NCBI RefSeq assembly: GCF_014217255.1
Contig: NZ_CP059404.1
Location: 2,170,001-2,234,000 of the forward strand
Length of the DNA stretch: 64,000 nt
From: Corynebacterium incognita
GTDB lineage: Bacteria; Actinomycetota; Actinomycetes; Mycobacteriales; Mycobacteriaceae
Direction: 5' to 3'
The notes below the pieces were generated by a model, which was given only the letters and a program-made list of their open reading frames with translations, did not search any database and was not told the DNA's origin. A program made the position numbers and the translations under genes. Numbering within the stretch: the stretch's first letter is position 1; every line of letters begins with the position of its first letter. Shown in pieces: positions 8,377 through 56,934 of the stretch.

Positions 8377-9114
8377 TTAGGCGCTTGGCGTGGATGCGTC
8401 TCGTTCTTCACCCGCCGGTGCTAGGCGAACAGCGCAGGTGCCTGGGCCGGAACGAGGGATAAGCGTCAACGAGGTCTTGCCGTCGGTGTGAGAACGCATG
8501 GCCTCTTGGAGGAAGCCGTCGTGCACTGCACAGATGAAGGGCGAGGGCTGGGCAGACGCCGTGGTGAAAGGGCAGGCATTGAGGTCCACCTGGGACTCGC
8601 CCGAAGGTGTGTCGGGCTGGACTGTGGGGTCAAAGCCCATGTCGCGTAAGCGGCGGAAGACCGGTGCGAGCACGCTGCCCGAGTTCGCCAGGTCTTCTCC
8701 GTAGAGTTTCATTGTGCGTGCCCACTTTGTGCCGATCTCCCGGGCCATATTCAGGTCGGCGGAGCTGAGATCATCCCGCGACGCCACCATGCCGGCCAGG
8801 ACCTCGATGAGCGTGACGTATTCTTCTGCGATGGAGCGATTGTCCGGCACGCGCACTTGGAAAATCAGAGACGGGCGGCCGCGGCCCTTCGCTGGGGCGG
8901 TCACGACGCGCACGGCGTCGTGCGCTACAAGTTCGTCTAGGTGTCCGCGGGCGGTATTGACATGCATGCCTAGCTTGGCCGCAACGTCGGCGGCGCGGGC
9001 GCCTTCCGGGAACGTTTGTAGGGTATTGAGCACCTCTCGTTGCTTCGGTGAAAGCGTGAGGGATTCCGGGAAGAGTTCCGCTGCAGCGCGGGGCGCGGAA
9101 TGTTGAGTAGCCAT
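8377..9114 (-). CDS. arnR: ArnR-like winged-helix regulator with C-terminal cysteines
   Basis: A 245-residue DNA-binding protein with an N-terminal winged helix (residues 20-90; recognition region AAKLGMHVNTARGHLDELV, wing KGRGRPSLIFQ) and a C-terminal sensor region with Cys181 (NACPF), Cys195 (FICAVHDGFL) and Cys227 (GTCAVRL), a pattern suited to an Fe-S cluster. In C. glutamicum the regulator next to hom-thrB is ArnR, which represses narKGHJI and responds to nitric oxide; position and build match, so I assign it by synteny. It starts two bases before the end of modBC's neighbourhood (directly abutting the modBC stop), with AAGGAG seven bases upstream inside modBC, so it is the last gene of the molybdate operon. 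A SufR-like regulator is the alternative. Confidence 0.72.
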   Translation of the reverse strand: MATQHSAPRAAAELFPESLTLSPKQREVLNTLQTFPEGARAADVAAKLGMHVNTARGHLDELVAHDAVRVVTAPAKGRGRPSLIFQVRVPDNRSIAEEYVTLIEVLAGMVASRDDLSSADLNMAREIGTKWARTMKLYGEDLANSGSVLAPVFRRLRDMGFDPTVQPDTPSGESQVDLNACPFTTASAQPSPFICAVHDGFLQEAMRSHTDGKTSLTLIPRSGPGTCAVRLAPAGEERDASTPSA

Positions 9115-40998: not shown

Positions 40999-41388
40999 TT
41001 AATCCATCTGCAGGATGGTACGCAGCTCTGCGAAGTGTTCCGGAAGGACCCTGTAGAGCTGCGTTTTGCCGTGTCGTACCGGTTCTAGTAGACCGGCTTC
41101 CACCAGCCGCGCAATGTGATGGGACACGGTGGGTTGGGTAATGCCGAGCTCGCCGACGAGGTCTCCGGCAGTCACGCTGCGGCAGCCGTCGGCGGCGATG
41201 AGGGAGAGCAGGCGCAGCCGAGTAGGGTCGGCGAGAACCTTGAGTCGGGCTGCGTAGGAGGCGGATTCTTCGGGCGTCAGCGCCCGGGTAGTCATGGCGC
41301 AGCACTCGGTGGTGGGGGAGCAGCTGGGAGTCGGTGGCACGGCGGGTCCTGTCTTGCGGTGGGTAGTGATGTGTTCTACTGTACACAT
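40999..41388 (-). CDS. arsR: Arsenic-responsive ArsR repressor
   Basis: A 129-residue SmtB/ArsR winged-helix repressor of arsenic genes. The helix-turn-helix reads DLVGELGITQPTVSHHIARLVEAGLL. The As(III) ligands match C. glutamicum ArsR: a Cys pair in TTECC (30-31... of the long form) and a third cysteine in ADGC exactly 39 residues after the second, the spacing of Cys16 and Cys55 there. This supports the long form starting at the ATG at 41388. No ribosome binding site lies before it, and an operator-like palindrome begins at the next base, so the mRNA is probably leaderless and autoregulated. Confidence 0.93.
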   Translation of the reverse strand: MCTVEHITTHRKTGPAVPPTPSCSPTTECCAMTTRALTPEESASYAARLKVLADPTRLRLLSLIAADGCRSVTAGDLVGELGITQPTVSHHIARLVEAGLLEPVRHGKTQLYRVLPEHFAELRTILQMD

Positions 41389-41406
41389 TGATACTCATCT
41401 ATATCA
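41389..41406. promoter_or_regulatory. Putative ArsR operator between arsR and acr3
   Basis: TGATA-N8-TATCA inverted repeat directly adjoining the arsR start codon and ending 9 bases before the acr3 GTG. Known ArsR sites are AT-rich palindromes of this kind. Binding here would cover both divergent start regions. Confidence 0.6.
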
Positions 41407-41415
41407 GGAGGCGAC

Positions 41416-42486
41416 GTGTCCGAAAAACTTTCACTCCTTGATCGGCTCTTGCCGGTCTGGATCGGCCTGGCAATGGTGCTCGGGCTGCTGCTCGGTCGCT
41501 TCGTGCCAGCCGTTGGCGACGTGCTGGCGTCCTGGGAGGTAGCTGGAAACTCAGTCCCCATCGCCATCGGTCTACTCGTCATGATGTATCCGCCACTGGC
41601 CAAAGTGCGCTATGACAAAACGGCCGAGGTCGCCGCGGACAAGAAGCTGCTGGTGGTCTCGGTCCTGCTGAACTGGGTTCTCGGACCGGTGCTCATGTTT
41701 GCACTGGCATGGGCGTTCCTTCCTGACGAGCCCGAGCTGCGCACCGGCCTCATCATCGTCGGCCTTGCGCGCTGCATCGCCATGGTCTTGGTGTGGAACG
41801 ACCTCGCGTGCGGCGACACCGAAGCCGCCGCAGTTTTGGTGGCCATCAACTCTGTGTTCCAGATTCTCATGTTCGGTGTGCTGGGCTGGTTCTACCTGCA
41901 GGTGCTCCCGAGTTGGTTCGGCCTCCAGACGACTTCGGTGGAGTTTTCCTTCTGGGCGATCGTGGCCTCGGTAGTGGTCTACCTTGGCATCCCGCTTCTC
42001 GCGGGTGCGCTGTCCCGCATCATCGGTGAAAAGACGCGCGGGCGTCAGTGGTACGAGGAAACTTTCCTCCCGGCGGTGTCTCCGTTGGCGCTTATCGGAT
42101 TGTTGTTTACCATCGTCGCCCTCTTCGCGCTGCAAGGCGAGCAGGTCCTTGCTAACCCGGGCACCGTGGCTAAGGTGGCGGTGCCGTTGCTGGGCTACTT
42201 CGTCATCATGTTTTTCTTGGCGTTCTTTATCGCTCGGACGGCAGGGATGGATTACGCGCACACCGCGACGGTGGCCTTTACAGCCGCAGGCAACAACTTT
42301 GAGCTGGCCATCGCCGTGGCCATCGGTACCTTCGGGATGACTAGTGCGCAGGCACTAGCGGGCACCATTGGTCCTTTAGTTGAAGTACCCGTCCTCGTGG
42401 GACTAGTGTACGTATCCTTGTGGCTGGCACCGCGCTTGTTCGCCGGCGACGCCACCGTTCCGCGTAATCAGAAAGTGAGCAACTGA
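41416..42486 (+). CDS. acr3: Arsenite efflux pump Acr3
   Basis: A 356-residue antiporter with ten membrane helices, exporting As(OH)3. The essential cysteine is in [27 protein letters not shown] (around residue 130) and [17 protein letters not shown] is the second conserved segment (around 295). GTG start with CAGGAGG 5 bases upstream. The stop overlaps the arsC start (TGATG arrangement), so the two genes are coupled and controlled by the divergent ArsR. Confidence 0.95.
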
Positions 42487-42899
42487 TGACCAAGAAGGTC
42501 TTGTTCTTGTGCAATTCCAACAAGGGTAAGTCACAGATGGCAGCCGGTTTGGCCGCCAAACATGCGCCGGAGTGGGATATCTACTCCGCCGGTGTGCAGG
42601 TGTCTGAGGTAGGCACCAAGGGTAACGTGAACCTCGAGTCCGCGGAATCACTCAAGGAAGTGGGTGCGGACATGTCCGATGACACCCCCAAGCCCGTAGA
42701 TCCGGAGCTGCTGCGCACCGCCGACGCCGTGGTCGTCGTGGGCACCGCGGACCTCGAGTGGCCTGCCGACGCCCGCGGACAACTCATCCGCTGGGACACC
42801 CCCGAGCCCTCCGAACAGGGACTCGAGGGCATGGAGCGCATGCGGGTGCTGCGCGACGACATTGATGCCCGCGTCCGCCAGCTCGTCGAAGAGCTGTAG
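42486..42899 (+). CDS. arsC: Arsenate reductase, low-molecular-weight phosphatase type
   Basis: A 137-residue protein with the P-loop [17 protein letters not shown] at the N-terminus. It has a single active-site cysteine (Cys10) and lacks the C-terminal cysteine pair of thioredoxin-coupled ArsC, as in the monothiol ArsC1 enzymes of C. glutamicum that use mycothiol and mycoredoxin. Lys replaces the usual Arg in the loop, also known from that group. It reduces arsenate or transfers it to mycothiol, giving arsenite for Acr3. It overlaps acr3 by 1 base. Confidence 0.92.
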
Positions 42900-42927: not shown

Positions 42928-45159
<2,232 letters not shown>

Positions 45160-45187: not shown

Positions 45188-46258
45188 CTAAGAGCGGTTC
45201 ATCTCCTCAAGCGCCTTCCAATGATCGTCGGTCATCTTCGACAACGGCGTGACTAATACGCGCGAGGCCCCGTCGCTGTGCTCGGCTGACGTCTTGAGAT
45301 CGGCGGGGTTCAGCGGGGCGTCTCCGCGTGCCCACAGGCCCACAGACATGGTGATGTTGTCCAGCGCCTGTGCGCCCAATCGTTTCTTGAGCCCTTTAAC
45401 GACCTTTGCGGTGGTCTCTGGGCGTTGGCCATCGATATCCGTGTACGCCCACAGTGTGAGGTGGTGCTGCGCGTTGAGAAACTTCTCGTAGTCGTGGCCG
45501 GAGTCGTCGCGGTTAGCGCCGGGGTTGTCCCAGTTGACACGGGCGTCCATTTCTACGGGTACGCCGGCTGCCTGGTGGCAGCGGTCCAGAAGACCAGTAA
45601 TGATGTCGGACTGCCACGCCGTGAGCTGGGGATCTGCGGTATTGATAGAACCATCCGGCTGCCGTGGGAAGCCAGGGGCACCTGTCATTGCAGAATAGAG
45701 CTCTTCGTCGCCTTCGGAAAAGAAGGCGTCACCCATCAATTCGGTAAGTGCGATTCGGTCGGGAGAATAGCGTTGGGAGATTTCACTGCAGAGCTTCTCG
45801 ACGTCCTCGCCCACGCTGCCCTCAGCGAGCGCCACGGCGTTAGGGAAGGCACTGGCTTCCTCCCCGTTAGCAAAGCGGCCCATATACTCTGGGTTCTCCT
45901 CATTGGTGGACGGGGTGAGGATATCCACGGTGAGTGTGGCCTCTCGCTCTCGGCCGAGAACGTCCATCGCGGACTTCACCGGATCAGTGTTTTCTTCGGC
46001 GGCGCGTTCCGCGATGCCAGACAATTTATCTTCGTGGTCCTTCCACGGAAAAGCCACCCATTCGATGCGGCCGACCGCCAGGGAGTAGCCGGTGGCGTTC
46101 GCGTCATCGAAGCGTTGCGCCACCTGCGCGAAATCGGTGCCGTCCTGGAGGGATTCCATACCGATGCCAATGGCTAGCGGTGGGGCCTTTTTCGACAATA
46201 GTCCAAACATTGCGACACCTAAGACGATGAGAACGAGGGGGAGGACGCCGAGCGCCAC
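45188..46258 (-). CDS. Membrane-anchored protein with TIM-barrel-like pattern, putative glycosidase
   Basis: A protein of about 356 residues. A single membrane helix (LGVLPLVLIVLGVAMFGLL) sits at the start; the rest should lie outside the membrane. Eight beta-strand-like segments recur in order (PLAIGIGME, GYSLAVGRIEW, ATLTVDILTP, DRIALTELMGD, VPVEMDARVNW, LTLWAYTD, NITMSVGLW, RVLVTPLS), the layout of a TIM barrel, with Glu at the end of strand 4 as in many glycosidases. I recognise no family. It is the last gene of an operon with a polysaccharide synthase. The GTG at 46258 lies 4 bases after the synthase stop; an in-frame ATG about 145 bases earlier, inside the synthase gene, has AGGAG upstream and is an alternative. 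Confidence 0.7.
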   Translation of the reverse strand: MALGVLPLVLIVLGVAMFGLLSKKAPPLAIGIGMESLQDGTDFAQVAQRFDDANATGYSLAVGRIEWVAFPWKDHEDKLSGIAERAAEENTDPVKSAMDVLGREREATLTVDILTPSTNEENPEYMGRFANGEEASAFPNAVALAEGSVGEDVEKLCSEISQRYSPDRIALTELMGDAFFSEGDEELYSAMTGAPGFPRQPDGSINTADPQLTAWQSDIITGLLDRCHQAAGVPVEMDARVNWDNPGANRDDSGHDYEKFLNAQHHLTLWAYTDIDGQRPETTAKVVKGLKKRLGAQALDNITMSVGLWARGDAPLNPADLKTSAEHSDGASRVLVTPLSKMTDDHWKALEEMNRS

Positions 46259-46262
46259 GCGG

Positions 46263-47759
46263 TTACGGCGCCGGCTGAGAATCCCCGGCCATGCTGACGT
46301 TGCCCGTGCCTGGGCGTGCGGTCGATCCTGGCTTCGTAGCCGGCTTTGAGGCTGCGGCGATTGCTGGTTGTGGTGCGTTGGTTTTCGGGGTGAGCGCGGT
46401 TGCATCACGGTGTGAGATGACTCCTGTTCTTTCGGGCTTGTTCCACACTTGAGGTTTCTTGGCAATTTCGAGGTACCAGGCGCGAATCATGGTCAGTGAC
46501 ATGGCAGTGGAGTAGAAGGGCCAGATGGGTATGGTCCAGATGAAGCGGAGATCGCGCAGCGAATTGGCCATGGCCATGGCAATGACCAGAAGTACGAGGG
46601 AGACCACGAGGCCGGAACCGAAGAGAATAATCCAGGCCACCTCCCACGAAAGAATCTCGTCGAGCCAGCGCGATGGGCCGTCCCCCGCGTTGCCGGGTGC
46701 CCCACCGTTGCGGGTTTCTTGGTAGCGCTGCCACGCGGACCACACACCCCAGCCGACGACGATGAGTAGGGAGAGAATTTGCACTGGCGGCAGAATCGCC
46801 ATGGCAAAAATGGTGAAGATGAGAAACGGCATGAAGGCGCCGTAACGGGGTGACAGGGCGCAGCGCCAGTGATAGCCCAGCGATTGGAGGAGCCCGCGAG
46901 CCCAGCGCACACGCTGCTTCCACAGGGCTTTGAAGGTGGACGGCGACTCGGCGTAGACGATGGCGCGTGGGGCGAACGCGACGTCCCACTCGTGGCGGTG
47001 GAAGCGCCAGGTCATTTCCAAGTCCTCGCCAATGGTGTCTTCTCGCAACGGGCCAGGACCACTTCCAGTGAGCTCATCTAAAGCCTCCCTGCGGAAAGTG
47101 CCGCAGTTACCGGAGACCACAGGCACGCAGCCCAAGACGTCGAAAGCGCGGCGGACCAAGGCCGTGCCTACGTAGGTAATGAGCGCCAGGAACCGGGTCA
47201 AGACGCGGTTGAGGTTGACTGGGCGGTCGTCACCACACACCGCGCCCACGTTTTCATGGCGGAAGCCACGGAGCATCTCGGGAATGGTGTCATTGGTGAA
47301 GACGGAATCCGCATCAATAAACATAAGAAACTCGCCCGTAGATTCGCGGTAGCCGTGATTGAGCGCCGAACCTTTCCCGCCGTTGACCTGGCGAATATAC
47401 CGCACCCGAGGGTCATCGGCGTCGAGGGCGCGACCGATTTCTTCCGTGCGATCTTTGGAGCCGTCATCGACAATGAGGATTTCGATGTTGGGGTAATCCG
47501 TGGAGGCGATGGAACGCACGCATGACTCCAGCGTGGCCTCTTCGTTGTACGCCGGGATCACCACCGAGATACTCGGAGTATCAGCCAGCGCACCGGTGTC
47601 GCCTTCTTCGCGTCTGCGCAGGTCAATGCGTTGATGCACGAAGGCCAAGGGGACGAAAAAGATACGGAACAAGAACACGCCCGTGGTGATAGTGAACAGC
47701 ACAAAGGCGGCGAGCGCCACGGCGTCCACTAAGGGCTCGAGAACGTACACAGATTTCAC
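46263..47759 (-). CDS. Processive family 2 glycosyltransferase (polysaccharide synthase)
   Basis: A 498-residue membrane enzyme of the PgaC/IcaA/hyaluronan synthase type. One or two N-terminal helices (10-40), a GT2 domain with D,D,D,QxxRW motifs (VDDG at 97-100, DAD at 149-151, GEDLEMT at 244-250, QRVRW at 282-286) and three or four C-terminal helices (310-440), then a basic Pro/Ala-rich tail. It should polymerise a UDP-sugar, likely UDP-GlcNAc or a related hexosamine, while moving the chain across the membrane. The GTG at 47759 is listed; the GTG three codons later has better spacing from GAGG. Deacetylase and ATP-grasp genes lie upstream, a putative hydrolase downstream. Confidence 0.87.
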   Translation of the reverse strand: MKSVYVLEPLVDAVALAAFVLFTITTGVFLFRIFFVPLAFVHQRIDLRRREEGDTGALADTPSISVVIPAYNEEATLESCVRSIASTDYPNIEILIVDDGSKDRTEEIGRALDADDPRVRYIRQVNGGKGSALNHGYRESTGEFLMFIDADSVFTNDTIPEMLRGFRHENVGAVCGDDRPVNLNRVLTRFLALITYVGTALVRRAFDVLGCVPVVSGNCGTFRREALDELTGSGPGPLREDTIGEDLEMTWRFHRHEWDVAFAPRAIVYAESPSTFKALWKQRVRWARGLLQSLGYHWRCALSPRYGAFMPFLIFTIFAMAILPPVQILSLLIVVGWGVWSAWQRYQETRNGGAPGNAGDGPSRWLDEILSWEVAWIILFGSGLVVSLVLLVIAMAMANSLRDLRFIWTIPIWPFYSTAMSLTMIRAWYLEIAKKPQVWNKPERTGVISHRDATALTPKTNAPQPAIAAASKPATKPGSTARPGTGNVSMAGDSQPAP

Positions 47760-47766
47760 CCTCTTC

Positions 47767-48663
47767 TTAAGAATGGGGGCGAGCGAAGGCCCCTGCTTCC
47801 AGATCGGCCAGCAGCAGCGTTAGCATCTCCGGAGTGTGCGCAGAGTTGGCACCAAAGCGGGCGTTAATCTCCAAAATCACCGGCTGGCCCGCTGCGGTGC
47901 GGCGGATATCCATGTCCACCGCCCCGACGAGATCAAGCTTCTCCACGGCCGCGGTCGCCAGCGCCTCAATATCCGCGACAGCGTCCCCCTCGGCGAGCTC
48001 CACGGCGTCGGCGTTGCCCACGTTGCCGTCTCGGAGTTTAGTTTTTTCCAACACGCGGACAGTGACCTCTCCGGTGAGCGGCGAACGGTAGACCTGCGGG
48101 CAATACTCGACGCCAGTGGCAAAGGACTGGAACACCAATGTGGCGTCCGGGTGGGGCAATTCAGATTCTCCGGTCACGACGGTGACGCCGCGGCCACCAC
48201 GCGACACACGGGGTTTTGCGATGAACGGGAAATCCAGCGGTTCTTCGTTCCCCGCCACGGTCGTGGGCACCGCGACCCCGTAAGCATCCAGGGCGCGGCA
48301 CGTCAGCCACTTATCCTGACAGAGTGCGGCAGCGCCGGCGTTGGACACCACCGTCGCGGCGTCGAAAAGCGGGGCGCCGACGGCCACGGCCGGAAGCTCA
48401 TCTTGGACTGTGGGGATGAAGGTGTCAATGCCCAGAACGGGGTCGGAGAGAACGCGGGTGAGGAAGGGAACGAGTGCCAAGTCATCGGCGCGCGGTCCTT
48501 GGATGAATCGTGAGACGGGGGTATCCGTCGGCTTGATATCTGTGCCGATGACGGTGTGGCCGCGATCCTGAAGCTGCCGAGCTAGAGACTTTCCGGCAGG
48601 TCCACCCACGCCGGTCAGCAAAACCGTGCGCGAGCGTGCAGAGTCGATTGAGGGGGAGTTCAT
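47767..48663 (-). CDS. ATP-grasp enzyme of the polysaccharide operon
   Basis: A 298-residue protein. The N-terminus is a Rossmann-like pre-ATP-grasp domain (VLLTGVGGPAGKSLARQL, GTDIKPTD), the middle binds ATP (FIAKPRVSRGGRGVTVV), and the C-terminus has the metal-binding VDMDIRRTA and VILEINARFGANSAHTPEM. ATP-grasp ligases join a carboxylate to an amine or thiol through an acyl phosphate. Closest in pattern are CarB-like/PylC-like proteins. In this operon it could acylate free amino groups of a hexosamine with an amino acid or other acid, which is inference. It ends 7 bases before the glycosyltransferase start. Confidence 0.85.
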   Translation of the reverse strand: MNSPSIDSARSRTVLLTGVGGPAGKSLARQLQDRGHTVIGTDIKPTDTPVSRFIQGPRADDLALVPFLTRVLSDPVLGIDTFIPTVQDELPAVAVGAPLFDAATVVSNAGAAALCQDKWLTCRALDAYGVAVPTTVAGNEEPLDFPFIAKPRVSRGGRGVTVVTGESELPHPDATLVFQSFATGVEYCPQVYRSPLTGEVTVRVLEKTKLRDGNVGNADAVELAEGDAVADIEALATAAVEKLDLVGAVDMDIRRTAAGQPVILEINARFGANSAHTPEMLTLLLADLEAGAFARPHS

Positions 48664-48741
48664 TGTGTGGCGTGTTCCTTGACTGGTTCTGTGGTGTACG
48701 TCGTGGTGGTGTGAGGCGCTGATCGCTGCGCCTGCGGCACA

Positions 48742-49464
48742 CTAGAGGTTCAGCGGATCGTCGAGGCGGAGGCGGACTGGCTCGAATCCTTCGGCGCGGT
48801 TGATGCGGGCCTGGCGACCGCGGAAAGAGGTAATGCCATCGATGATGTCGCGGGTCATGTAGGGCTTGCTCATTTGGTTGGCGTGAGCGTTCACTGCGGT
48901 GTTCTTCACGTCTGCGTACTCGCTGACGTCGATGAAGACAGAAGGGGTGAAGTCCTTGGTCACAGAAGGAGACTCGAAGCACAAGATGGAGTGGTGGTTG
49001 CGTGCCGCGCGCAGAACCGCCTGGTGTACTGCGTAGTGGTCCTGGTGAATATCGTGCTCGGAGTGGGTGAGAATCAAATCGGGGTCGCGCTGCTTAATGT
49101 GGCGCTCGATGACGCCAATCATGTCGTTGGTGACGCTGGCCAGGTTGAGATCCGGGAAGTCGTTCACGTCGACGCTGTCCATACCCAAGAAGCGTCCGGC
49201 CCGCTTTGCTTCGCCGGGGCGCACCGAGGCGTCGCCGCCCTTGGCGCCGTTGGACATGATGACCGCGTGGACGGCGTGGCCGCGATCGATGAGGGTAGCG
49301 ATGGTGCCGCCGCAGGCGATTTCTAGGTCATCAGGGTGGGCGGCAAGGATGAGGACGGACGCCTTCCGCTTTTGCTCCTGCATCTTGATGCGCTGGGTGA
49401 GCAGGAGGCCGGAAAAGAGGAAGGTGCACACTAAGATCGCCATGATGGCGGCGTAGTCCCACAT
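48742..49464 (-). CDS. PIG-L family deacetylase, membrane-anchored
   Basis: A 240-residue zinc deacetylase of the LmbE/PIG-L family. Motifs: AAHPDDLEIACGG (41-53, zinc His and catalytic Asp) and HSEHDIHQDHYAVHQA (around 145, second zinc His). Relatives remove acetyl from GlcNAc-containing compounds (MshB, PIG-L, BshB). One membrane helix at 5-23 precedes the domain. The ATG at 49464 is the only standard start but has no ribosome binding site; the frame upstream (to about 49590) encodes a plausible further hydrophobic segment without ATG, GTG or TTG, hinting at a frameshift with the small ORF upstream. Confidence 0.87.
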   Translation of the reverse strand: MWDYAAIMAILVCTFLFSGLLLTQRIKMQEQKRKASVLILAAHPDDLEIACGGTIATLIDRGHAVHAVIMSNGAKGGDASVRPGEAKRAGRFLGMDSVDVNDFPDLNLASVTNDMIGVIERHIKQRDPDLILTHSEHDIHQDHYAVHQAVLRAARNHHSILCFESPSVTKDFTPSVFIDVSEYADVKNTAVNAHANQMSKPYMTRDIIDGITSFRGRQARINRAEGFEPVRLRLDDPLNL

Positions 49465-49538
49465 TCCGTACTGTGTGACCGCGCCGATGAGCCCGAATCT
49501 GGCGGCGAGAGCAAGACCAATGCGGGCCGTGCGGACGA

Positions 49539-49664
49539 TCAGAGTGGAACGGTGATAGCCGCGGTAATTCGTTTGACGACTGGGTGACTATTAACGATAA
49601 AGAATAAGACTACGGCAACGCCGTAGATGGTCATACTTAAATACTGATAAGTTTCTGCTAACAT
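49539..49664 (-). CDS. 41-residue membrane peptide upstream of PIG-L gene, or its displaced N-terminus
   Basis: A 41-codon frame: ATG at 49664 with GAGG 8 bases upstream, one clear membrane helix (MTIYGVAVVLFFIV) and a basic tail (VVKRITAAITVPL), stop TGA at 49539. The following gene's frame is open across the last third of this ORF. It is either a separate small membrane protein opening the operon or the true N-terminus of the PIG-L protein separated by a single-base shift. Both readings explain the missing ribosome binding site of the PIG-L ATG. Confidence 0.55.
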   Translation of the reverse strand: MLAETYQYLSMTIYGVAVVLFFIVNSHPVVKRITAAITVPL

Positions 49665-49867: not shown

Positions 49868-49897
49868 AAACCCCATGCCAGTGATGGCGTGGGGTTT
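49868..49897 (-). terminator. Terminator after glgE
   Basis: AAACCCCATGCC and GGCGTGGGGTTT form a 12-base stem with one mismatch and a 6-base loop, 54 bases beyond the glgE stop. It separates glgE from the polysaccharide operon downstream on the same strand. Confidence 0.82.
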
Positions 49898-49950: not shown

Positions 49951-51987
49951 CTATGCGCGGTAATCGGTTACCTTACGCCACGCAAGGCGCTCACGGCGCT
50001 CCTGGTCTACCGCGGGCAGAATGAAGACGTGGGCGACGTCGCGCAGTGGTTCCAAGCGGACGAAGTTGCGGTCCGACCACGTATAGGCCGCGCCGGTGAT
50101 GGCGTCTTGGACACCAAAGATGTCGCCGGGGCGCAGGCCGATTTCTTCCATGTCGACGGAGACGGAAGCCTCCTGGGCATTGCGCGGATCCAGATTCACG
50201 ACTACCAAGACCACGTTTCCGGTGGCGGGGTCGGCCTTGGAATAGGCGATGATGTTGTCGTTGTCCACCGGGTGGAAGTGGAGGTTGCGCAATTGCTGCA
50301 ACGCCGGGTTTTCCTTGCGGACGTGGTTGAGCAAGCGTAGGTAGGACTCGAGCGAGTTGCCCGCGTTAGCCGCGGCCTGGAAATCGCGCGGCCGCAGCTG
50401 GTACTTCTCGGAATCAAGGTATTCTTCGCTACCGGGTGCTAAGGGCACGTGCTCGTAGAGCTCGTAGCCCGAGTACACGCCCCACAGCGGGGACAGCGTG
50501 GCGGCCAAGACCGCCCGAATAGCGAACATGGCGCGTCCCCCTGTCTGCAGCGACTCGTGCAGGATGTCCGGGGTATTAACAAAGAGGTTGGGGCGGCAAA
50601 TGTCGGCGTGGCCCACGTGTTCCTGGGCGAACTCCATGAGCTCAGACTTGGTGGTCTTCCACGTGAAGTAGGTATAGGACTGCGTGAACCCCAGTTTAGC
50701 GAGGCCCAGTAGGCGCGCCTGGCGGGTAAAGGCCTCAGACAAGAAGATGACCTCCGGGTGGGTAGCGTGCACCTTAGCGATGAGCCACGCCCAGAAGTTC
50801 GCCGGCTTAGTGTGCGGGTTATCCACGCGGAAGGTGGTCACTCCGGCCTCAACCCACACCATCACCACGCGGTAGATTTCCGCGTAGATCTCGTCTGGAG
50901 CGTTGTCGAAGTTCAGTGGATAGATGTCTTGGTACTTCTTCGGCGGATTTTCTGCATAGGCAATGGTTCCGTCCGGCAGCACGGTGAAGAACTCGGGGTT
51001 CTCCTTGGCCCACGGGTGGTCGGGCGCAGCCTGCAGCGCGAGGTCTAGAGCGATTTCCAACCCCAATTCCTCCGCACGCTCTACTAGGGCCTTAAAGTCC
51101 TCCATGGTTCCTAGCTCGGGGTGGACTGCGTCGTGGCCACCGTCGCGGGAACCAATAGCCCAGGGCGAACCGACGTCACCGTCCTCGGTAGTTAGCGTGT
51201 TGTTCTTACCCTTACGATTGATGTGGCCGATGGGGTGAATCGGCGGGAAGTAGACGGTGTCGAAGCCCATGCGAGCCACGCGCTCCAAAGCCTTGGCGGT
51301 GGTGGCGAAAGTGCCGTGGACCGGCTGGCCGTTCTCATCGACGCCTCCGGTGGATCGCGGGAAGAGCTCATACCACGAACTGAACAACGCCTTGGGGCGC
51401 TCGACAAGGACCTCGCACACGGGACCGTCGATAAGCATGTCGCGCACCGGGTAGGTGCGCAGTAATTCCCGGACCTCCTCGGACAGTGCCTTCGCCACGC
51501 GCTCTTCCAGGGGGAGGGTGGCGTCGCCCAGGGCCTTGGCGGCCTTCGTTACAGGCTTTCCCTCTTTGCCCGGCATGTCCTGGGCCGCACGGCGCAAGAG
51601 TTCGATTCCCTGGGCGATATCGTTGCTCAGTGCCGCGATATCCTGTCCCGCGGCCAGCTTTTTGTCCATCGCGTTGTACCACGTGGATACCGTGTCGGAC
51701 CATACTGACACCTGGAAGTGCCACGTGCCCTCCGTGCCGGGAGTAAAGACGCCATGCACGCGATCGGGGTTGTAGGGATCCTGGGTCATCGTGATGGAGG
51801 AGCGCACCTCGCTCGAACCGGACGCGGGCCATGCGGTCAACGTCGCTGCGATGGCATCGTGGCCTTCACGCCACGCCAAGGCAGTCACGGGGATAACCTC
51901 CCCAACCACGGCCTTTGCGGGCAAGGAACCATCGGAAATACGGGGGCGGATATCGTCCAGATTCAGGCGCTGTAGGGAGGCATGCAT
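49951..51987 (-). CDS. glgE: Alpha-1,4-glucan:maltose-1-phosphate maltosyltransferase
   Basis: A 678-residue GH13_3 enzyme that extends alpha-glucan using maltose-1-phosphate. The N-terminal domains (about 1-200) are followed by the barrel: PIHPIGHINRKGKNNTL, IALDLALQAAPDHPWAKENPEFF, VTTFRVDNPHTKPANFW with the nucleophile Asp, and VIFLSEAFTRQARL with the acid/base Glu, then the C-terminal beta domain. Length is normal. It works with GlgB; in C. glutamicum the two genes are neighbours, while here a polysaccharide operon lies between them. Confidence 0.97.
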   Translation of the reverse strand: MHASLQRLNLDDIRPRISDGSLPAKAVVGEVIPVTALAWREGHDAIAATLTAWPASGSSEVRSSITMTQDPYNPDRVHGVFTPGTEGTWHFQVSVWSDTVSTWYNAMDKKLAAGQDIAALSNDIAQGIELLRRAAQDMPGKEGKPVTKAAKALGDATLPLEERVAKALSEEVRELLRTYPVRDMLIDGPVCEVLVERPKALFSSWYELFPRSTGGVDENGQPVHGTFATTAKALERVARMGFDTVYFPPIHPIGHINRKGKNNTLTTEDGDVGSPWAIGSRDGGHDAVHPELGTMEDFKALVERAEELGLEIALDLALQAAPDHPWAKENPEFFTVLPDGTIAYAENPPKKYQDIYPLNFDNAPDEIYAEIYRVVMVWVEAGVTTFRVDNPHTKPANFWAWLIAKVHATHPEVIFLSEAFTRQARLLGLAKLGFTQSYTYFTWKTTKSELMEFAQEHVGHADICRPNLFVNTPDILHESLQTGGRAMFAIRAVLAATLSPLWGVYSGYELYEHVPLAPGSEEYLDSEKYQLRPRDFQAAANAGNSLESYLRLLNHVRKENPALQQLRNLHFHPVDNDNIIAYSKADPATGNVVLVVVNLDPRNAQEASVSVDMEEIGLRPGDIFGVQDAITGAAYTWSDRNFVRLEPLRDVAHVFILPAVDQERRERLAWRKVTDYRA

Positions 51988-55061: not shown

Positions 55062-55161
55062 GCCTACGGGAGTGTGTGCTCGTAGCCCGCGCCGCGCTAC
55101 GATGGCGGGGAGCGATAATTACACAACATTGAAGTTTCGGAATATGTGAAAGAGGTTGCCG

Positions 55162-55959
55162 ATGCCCGCTATTGTGGCGCTGGTTAAGCACGTTCCTGAT
55201 ACGTGGAGTGAGAAAGCCCTGGAGGCCGACCACACCCTCGACCGGGAGTCCGTGGACAACGTAATCGATGAGATCAACGAGTACTCGGTGGAGCAGGCGC
55301 TGCGCCTGCGCGACGACAACCCGGACGCAGGGTACACCGTGGTTGCACTGACCATGGGGCCGGAGAAGTCCGATGAGGCGCTCCGTAAGGCGCTGGCCAT
55401 GGGTGCGGACGCAGCGGTACAGGTCACCGACCCGGCGCTTGCTGGCTCAGATGCCCTGGGTACTGCCTGGGCGCTCAACAACGCGTTGAACACCATCGAC
55501 GACGTGCAGATCGTCATCATGGGCAACCAGTCCTCCGACGGTTCGACCGGCGCCGTGGCTGGCTTGCTGGCTGAGTACCGCCAGCTGCCTGCGGTGACCA
55601 ACGTGCGCACTGTGGCGTTGGACGGGGGAGCGCTGACCGCGACCCGCGAGGATTCTCGTGGCACCTGGGAGCTCAAGGCTAACCTTCCGACCATCGTCTC
55701 CGTGACCGACAAAGCGGACAAGCCGCGCTTCCCCAACTTCAAGGGCCTCATGGCTGCGAAGAAGGCTGAGATTACCGTTCTGGATCTGGCTGGCATTGGG
55801 GTCGACCCGGCGAACGTGGGCCTGGCCGCCGCGACGACGTCGGTGACGGCCGCTACCGCGCGCCCGGAACGCACCGCAGGCGAGCGCATCGAGGGCGTAA
55901 GCCCTGACGAAGCGGCACAGCAGATCGCAGATTACCTGGCAGCGAAGAACCTCATCTAA
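55162..55959 (+). CDS. etfB: Electron transfer flavoprotein beta subunit
   Basis: A 265-residue ETF beta (FixA) with IVALVKHVPDTW at the start, INEYSVEQALRLRDD and VVALTMGPEKSDEALRKALAMGAD, and the AMP-binding and docking region QIVIMGNQSSDGSTGAVAGLLAEYRQLPAVT. It pairs with EtfA to carry electrons from acyl-CoA or similar dehydrogenases to the membrane quinone pool. The ATG at 55162 has AAAGAGG upstream. etfA follows after 15 bases. Confidence 0.96.
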   Translation: MPAIVALVKHVPDTWSEKALEADHTLDRESVDNVIDEINEYSVEQALRLRDDNPDAGYTVVALTMGPEKSDEALRKALAMGADAAVQVTDPALAGSDALGTAWALNNALNTIDDVQIVIMGNQSSDGSTGAVAGLLAEYRQLPAVTNVRTVALDGGALTATREDSRGTWELKANLPTIVSVTDKADKPRFPNFKGLMAAKKAEITVLDLAGIGVDPANVGLAAATTSVTAATARPERTAGERIEGVSPDEAAQQIADYLAAKNLI

Positions 55960-55974
55960 GGGAGAAACACAATT

Positions 55975-56934
55975 ATGTCTCACGCATACGTACTTGTTGA
56001 GCATGCCGCCGGCCAGCTGTCGGACACCACCGCTGAGCTCATCACCGCCGCCCGCCCGCTGGGTGCGGTCTCCGCCGTGGTGGTCGGCGCCCCCGGTGTT
56101 GCTGAGAAGCTTGCTCCGGAACTGGCGCAGCTGGGGGCGGCGCAGGTAGTGGACGCCTCCGCCGCGGACTACGACCAGCGCCTCATCCTGCCCGAGGTCG
56201 ACGCCCTGCACGGTCTCGGTGCCGCCAACCCGGCCCCGATGGTCATTGCGGCGTCCGCGGCGGGCAACGAGATCGCCGGCCGTCTGGCAGCGCGCCTCGC
56301 CTCCGGAGCGTTGTACGACGTCACCGCCATTAACGCCGACCGCACCGCGGAGCACTCGATTTTCGGCGGCAAGATGACCACAACTGCGCAGGCTGCGGGA
56401 ACCTGCCCAATCTTCACGGTGCGCCCGGGTGCTGTGGTGGCTGAGCCCGTGGCGGCCGCCGGCGCGGTAGCAGCGATGCCGCTGCCCGCAGCCACGGCAA
56501 AGGACGTCCAGGTCATTGGCTTTACCCCAGCCGAGGTCTCCGACCGCCCCGACCTGGTGTCTGCCAAGACCGTCGTGGCCGGTGGCCGCGGCGTGGGCGA
56601 TGCTGAGGGCTTCGCCAACGTTGTGGAGCCACTCGCCGATGTGCTGGGCGCCGCGGTGGGTATCACCCGCGACGTGGCGGACGAGGGGCACTACGACGCC
56701 GCGCATCAGATCGGCCAAACCGGCGTTACTGTGTCCCCAGATCTGTACATCGGCCTGGGTATCTCTGGTGCCATCCAGCACACCGCAGGCATGCAGACCG
56801 CGGGCACCATTGTGGTAGTCAACCAGGACCAGGACGAGCCTTTCTTCAAGATCGCTGACCTCGGCGTCGTAGGCGACCTGCATGAGATCGCCCCAGCACT
56901 GACGCGGGAGATCCAGGCTCGCCGCGGCCAGTAG
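55975..56934 (+). CDS. etfA: Electron transfer flavoprotein alpha subunit
   Basis: A 319-residue ETF alpha (FixB). The FAD-binding C-terminal domain contains VAGGRGVGDAEGFANVVEPLADVLGAAVGITRDVADEGHYDAAHQIGQTG and VSPDLYIGLGISGAIQHTAGMQTAG, with VVNQDQDEPFFKIADLGVVGD near the end, all standard. It sits between etfB and a cysteine desulfurase gene (15-base gap), the order known from C. glutamicum. Confidence 0.96.
   Translation: MSHAYVLVEHAAGQLSDTTAELITAARPLGAVSAVVVGAPGVAEKLAPELAQLGAAQVVDASAADYDQRLILPEVDALHGLGAANPAPMVIAASAAGNEIAGRLAARLASGALYDVTAINADRTAEHSIFGGKMTTTAQAAGTCPIFTVRPGAVVAEPVAAAGAVAAMPLPAATAKDVQVIGFTPAEVSDRPDLVSAKTVVAGGRGVGDAEGFANVVEPLADVLGAAVGITRDVADEGHYDAAHQIGQTGVTVSPDLYIGLGISGAIQHTAGMQTAGTIVVVNQDQDEPFFKIADLGVVGDLHEIAPALTREIQARRGQ

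Follow-up and report, generated by a model that had tools for sequence, protein, structure and literature searches.

In Corynebacterium incognita, four minus-strand genes lie between glgE and glgB within a 64,000-nucleotide stretch of the genome (the window: contig NZ_CP059404.1, positions 2,170,001 to 2,234,000, numbered here from its first letter), and encode, in order of transcription, a PIG-L/LmbE-type N-deacetylase, an ATP-grasp enzyme, a family 2 glycosyltransferase (GT2) of the processive type, and a membrane-anchored protein (the end protein) with a predicted triosephosphate isomerase (TIM) barrel. At a probability of roughly 0.55, these genes constitute an accessory operon, probably spread by horizontal movement, which makes a hexosamine exopolymer of the synthase-dependent, poly-N-acetylglucosamine (PNAG) kind, with its N-acyl chemistry performed in the cytosol. 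More tentatively, and at somewhat less than even odds, the product may belong to a new class of exopolysaccharides, poly-hexosamines in which PIG-L and ATP-grasp enzymes exchange N-acetyl for amino-acyl or other amide groups in the cytosol before polymerisation, with the actinobacterial operon being a mobile cassette and the PIG-L/ATP-grasp/GT2 triad a general module. An initial annotation of the same DNA had proposed a co-directional gene set with gaps of 4-78 bases, which the coordinates and Pfam matches bear out (78 bases between the PIG-L and ATP-grasp genes, 7 between the ATP-grasp and GT2 genes, and 4 between the GT2 gene and the end gene); its four genes and their flanks stand, whereas its small membrane open reading frame (ORF) is probably not a fifth gene and its promoter is not supported.

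The genes of the operon co-occur as a unit. Among 151 genomes drawn from the genus, that of the window included, the GT2 profile identifies orthologs scoring at least 732 bits in seven, and the end-gene profile scores at least 533 bits in the same seven, besides a lone homolog (328 bits) in one other genome (G023). The ATP-grasp query matches 18 genomes at E 0.001, the same seven at E 1.7e-45 or better and 11 more weakly; three of these 11 (G019, G139 and G138), searched with all of the operon genes, have the ATP-grasp gene alone, the other eight being represented by their weak matches. All four genes, PIG-L included, are found together in six carriers besides the window, and Fisher tests of gene co-occurrence give p values of 3e-11 and 3e-12, which are overstated because the genomes are related. 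Four further genomes with GT2 matches of only 106-111 bits (G035, G079, G090 and G114) were not counted as carriers, and in G141 and G088 the match of the GT2 search crosses a stop upstream of the start of an ORF that is itself open. The soil actinobacterium Arthrobacter sp. StoSoilB13 carries a complete operon with the same gene order and 31-47% identity on a plasmid of 1.0 Mb.

The genomic contexts of the operon differ among its carriers. The initial annotation had noted that glgB and glgE are neighbours in C. glutamicum. In a draw of 18 same-genus genomes, glgB adjoins glgE at all 14 other loci where glgE is of full or nearly full length (L071-L084), the remaining four genomes having no such glgE match. 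Elsewhere in the genus, the operon adjoins a gene of glycoside hydrolase family 25 (L031, and by reading L029 and L032) with a cysteine desulfurase-like gene (by reading); or, in L030, stands beside genes that read as those of an mshA-like glycosyltransferase and an acyl-CoA ligase-like protein, the end gene coming first in the operon there; or lies downstream of tRNA-Leu (L033 and L034), its start in L033 being about 300 bases from the tRNA gene (8538-8623). A foreign base composition was ruled out, the G+C content of the operon resembling that of its flanks. Judged from these sequences, the operon is probably accessory, conserved and horizontally moving. Near the tRNA-associated copies, a Cas9 gene (L033:14942-18205; five Cas9-type Pfam domains and HNH) is some 2 kb away from the end gene of L033, and an array of clustered regularly interspaced short palindromic repeats (L034:2500-4500; 30 copies spaced 61 bases apart within the 2 kb covered, and perhaps more beyond, with one spacer present twice in a unit 99% identical) lies about 2.4 kb from that of L034.

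The GT2 synthase (46263..47759, minus strand; PF00535, 133.3 bits) had been described at the outset as processive with all D,D,D,QxxRW motifs, and the D, DxD, ED and QxxRW motifs are invariant in all seven aligned sequences, window included. The PgaC_IcaA family (TIGR03937) is the top curated family for the window and the seven other GT2s scanned, always with scores under its cut-off of 422.3 bits (185.4 in the window, 182.5, 212.9 and 196.6 in three operons elsewhere, and 129-146 in four triads), and hhalign with E. coli PgaC gives 99.96% over 232 columns with 35% identity. No gene of the PgaD/IcaD type was seen among the operon ORFs, the rest of the genome not having been searched. In the synthesis of mycothiol and bacillithiol, a PIG-L enzyme (MshB or BshB) frees the amine of glucosamine in the cytosol and a second enzyme (MshC or BshC), of a fold other than ATP-grasp, adds an amino acid. 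By the same logic of deacetylation followed by ligation, the product of the operon could be a glycolipid or some small conjugate of glucosamine, made with a non-processive GT2, and the window's GT2 does score 89.7 bits with MftF, a non-polymerising GT2; however, it is closer to PgaC and has QxxRW, and this quite unlikely alternative leaves the surface TIM-barrel protein without an explanation. The interpretation in the initial annotation is partly supported, and neither of the results that it had named beforehand as contrary to it turned up: the genes co-occur in other genomes, and the synthase matches PgaC_IcaA best among curated families, though below the cut-off, rather than non-polymerising lipid glycosyltransferases.

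The catalytic domain of the PIG-L enzyme (48742..49464, minus strand; PF02585, 93.5 bits) has the residues H43, D45, D46 and H143, which are invariant in all 12 aligned sequences, window included. The zinc site of the PIG-L/LmbE family, as given in PMC4101496, consists of HxxD followed by a histidine after a spacer of 97-148 residues; the spacer after H43xxD46 in the window is 96 residues, one below this range. According to the same source, the LmbE-like enzymes known by 2014 act on substrates with an N-acyl-glucosamine core (PMC4101496), and the closest solved structure for the PIG-L profile is diacetylchitobiose deacetylase (72.4 bits). A check for a NodB-type deacetylase (carbohydrate esterase family 4) elsewhere in the genome, suggested in the initial annotation, gave no match to PF01522 (Polysacc_deac_1) in its single contig of 2,348,605 bases, while the control matched in 11 of 14 genomes. 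The N-termini of seven PIG-L relatives, six from the genus (L029-L034) and one from Arthrobacter (L064), all consist of three membrane spans with a loop rich in K/R joining the first two: this first loop has 3-8 K/R and 0-1 D/E, the one that follows span 2 has 0-1 K/R, and the Arthrobacter protein, the start of which is uncertain, also has 2 K/R ahead of span 1. By the positive-inside distribution of these loops, the PIG-L domain is predicted to be cytosolic in all seven relatives.

In the window this N-terminus is interrupted. The 41-amino-acid ORF (49539..49664, minus strand) that was initially read as a separate membrane-protein gene of the operon probably encodes the beginning of the PIG-L protein, split off by a break of frame, a reading preferred mainly because of the membrane architecture of the relatives: span 1 and the K/R loop are in the small ORF, span 2 is in the PIG-L frame 5' of the ATG at 49464, and span 3 follows this ATG. 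Homology extends 33-41 residues upstream of the ATG in four relatives (L029, L031, L032 and L033), and the alignments stop short of the ATG in the other three (L030, L034 and L064). Aligned alone, the upstream stretch shows weak similarity: 14, 19, 30 and 45 of 500 shuffles do as well with four of the relatives, and 212-420 with the remaining three. The small ORF by itself has no significant similarity to any of the seven, with 77 of 500 shuffles as good in the best case. The break may be due to sequencing error, mutation or regulation; a programmed frameshift was considered, but no canonical slippery site was evident on inspection by eye. That the break is a true loss in a decaying copy of the operon is rather doubtful: the three-span N-terminus is unbroken in all seven relatives, and the lipobox seen (by eye) in the end proteins of the other seven of eight operons is missing from that of the window, but the reading frames of the catalytic domain and of the three remaining genes are uninterrupted and retain the invariant residues, and a sequencing error could also account for the break.

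The ATP-grasp enzyme (47767..48663, minus strand) is PRK12767-like and matches PF02655 (ATP-grasp_3) with 52.0 bits against a Pfam cut-off of 23.2. It is predicted to be soluble and to face the cytosol, and its structure model resembles PylC, D-Ala-D-Ala ligases and L-amino acid ligases, by analogy with which it may form an amide with an amino acid. It shares its fold and the ATP-grasp_3 domain with PRK12767/PylC-type enzymes, and differs in that its gene is within an operon of the polysaccharide type. At E 1e-20, the ATP-grasp profile matches eight of 396 genomes drawn from the phylum, window included; in six of the seven distant genomes, a PIG-L gene lies within about 6 kb of the ATP-grasp homolog, against 0.09 of seven expected by chance. 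A related GT2 gene is also near in four of the seven (L055-L058, the contig of L058 ending on one side of the locus), L059 has neither a PIG-L nor a GT2 gene near, and L054 and L060 have PIG-L and ATP-grasp genes near each other with no GT2 of the operon type within about 6 kb. In L057 (4719-9483), a single protein combines a receiver domain of the response-regulator type with the PIG-L domain, and next come ATP-grasp, an ORF that reads as PHP-like, and GT2; in the one distant locus from a scan of contigs with PIG-L (L028, Symbiobacteriaceae), adjacent PIG-L and ATP-grasp genes are followed by a PHP gene, with no operon-type GT2 within the 12.6 kb examined. No membrane span was seen by eye at the PIG-L N-terminus in L055, L057 and L058, which would fit a soluble substrate in these loci. 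Directly after the ATP-grasp gene of L055 is a gene for uridine diphosphate (UDP)-N-acetylglucosamine (GlcNAc) 2-epimerase (L055:4606-5727), which hints at a sugar of the N-acetylmannosamine type there.

The pairing of PIG-L with ATP-grasp bears on whether the operon might simply make a plain PNAG-like polymer, with PIG-L replacing NodB in partial deacetylation of the chain and ATP-grasp doing another job, such as chain priming or attachment. The PgaC-like synthase, the PgaB-like fold of the end protein, the resemblance of PIG-L to diacetylchitobiose deacetylase and the lack of a PF01522 match in the genome are all consistent with this alternative, which is nevertheless unlikely: the PIG-L domain is predicted to be cytosolic in all seven relatives, whereas PgaB is periplasmic (PMC5933820), and the persistence of the pair without such a GT2 within about 6 kb in L054 and L060 suggests a linked two-step reaction.

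For the exopolymer with cytosolic N-acyl chemistry, a pathway of four steps may be proposed. On the cytosolic face, the membrane-tethered PIG-L enzyme would strip acetyl from a substrate of the GlcNAc type, the simplest candidates being UDP-GlcNAc and the end of the chain next to the synthase; the ATP-grasp enzyme would turn the carboxylate of an amino acid or other small acid into an acyl phosphate and couple it to the freed amine; the membrane-spanning GT2 synthase would polymerise and extrude the chain; and the surface TIM-barrel protein would bind or trim the chain outside the cell, like the C-terminal domain of PgaB. The first two steps would resemble the logic of mycothiol synthesis, with an ATP-grasp ligase instead and a polymerase to follow, and the last two that of PNAG.

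The product of the end gene (45188..46258, minus strand) had been predicted to be a TIM barrel, and its model agrees: with one membrane span, it forms a (beta/alpha)8 barrel of which the top five VIA matches are PgaB/BpsB hydrolase domains. The invariant E173 directly follows the strand at 168-172; the catalytic D474 of BpsB is at the end of strand beta-4. The lead on this gene comes from fold only, because sequence profile searches gave none: it has no family in Pfam or NCBIfam, with no E value below 0.2 in Pfam for any of seven members scanned (one matched a twin-arginine translocation signal model at E 0.21); its profile has a best E of 0.59 with sequences of the Protein Data Bank; hhalign with five PgaB hydrolase domains (family GH153; 10 versus 5 sequences) gives P 0.38 over 296 columns, which is not significant; and full-length E. 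coli PgaB aligns over an N-terminal stretch only, also without significance. Hydrolase activity on the chain may be surmised from the model. The end gene is present in one of the 396 phylum-draw genomes (that of the window) and in four of 251 genomes drawn from the family, the window and three of genus g239; in these three it lacks the other operon genes in the stretches examined, two being short contigs, and the ATP-grasp profile gives one weak partial match only. A lone homolog (L121:6582-7703), with a lipobox by eye, has a gene for the ATPase of an ATP-binding cassette transporter about 1.3 kb away.

The operon is a novel combination of known parts. It shares a PgaC/IcaA-like GT2, an extracellular PgaB-like TIM barrel and a deacetylase with PgaABCD of E. 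coli and IcaADBC of staphylococci, but its deacetylase is PIG-L and predicted cytosolic where theirs is extracellular and of the NodB type, it has an ATP-grasp enzyme besides, and the end protein is similar to PgaB in fold without significant similarity in sequence. The MatAB system of Streptomyces likewise makes a PNAG-type polymer in actinobacteria with a GT2 synthase, but MatB has an extracellular domain of carbohydrate esterase family 4, and no PIG-L or ATP-grasp enzyme is described in the accessible part of the source (PMC5972031). In the open literature, no report was found that joins PIG-L with ATP-grasp or GT2 in exopolysaccharide or PNAG synthesis, nor any for Corynebacterium, although an earlier mention is possible. 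Alongside MatAB, the operon is a second candidate system by which actinobacteria could make a PNAG-like polymer, and the predicted non-acetyl amide groups might escape PNAG antibodies, dispersin B and PgaB-type enzymes. Because distant genomes also pair the deacetylase with the ligase, solving the biochemistry once would allow many loci to be annotated; a likely fold can now be given to an end-protein family without a Pfam match.

Upstream of the operon is glgE (49951..51987, minus strand; Pfam GlgE_dom_N_S, 163.7 bits), and downstream is glgB (42928..45159, minus strand; Pfam GlgB_N and CBM_48). The terminator of glgE noted previously corresponds to a terminator-like inverted repeat between glgE and the operon (49868..49897; 13 pairs, 7 of them G-C, with a loop of 4), terminator-like sites numbering six across the region against 4.5 expected (standard deviation 2.5). 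The region upstream of the operon is A+T-richer, as claimed, with a G+C fraction of 0.55 against 0.60-0.63 in the operon genes, but the claim of a promoter is not supported, with one consensus match in the 5' region against 1.3 expected by chance. Genes resembling etfB and etfA (by reading, window 55156-56934) are about 5.5 kb from the window's operon, and an etfA-like gene (L029:2786-3736) is about 2 kb from that of L029, so the two insertion sites may share a chromosomal neighbourhood. In genome G009 (L080), glgE and glgB each match as two pieces, both genes being apparently broken or divergent. Beside glgB in the window are genes for an ArsR-family regulator, an SBF-family transporter and a member of the low-molecular-weight phosphatase family (40999-42899), probably an arsenic resistance cluster.

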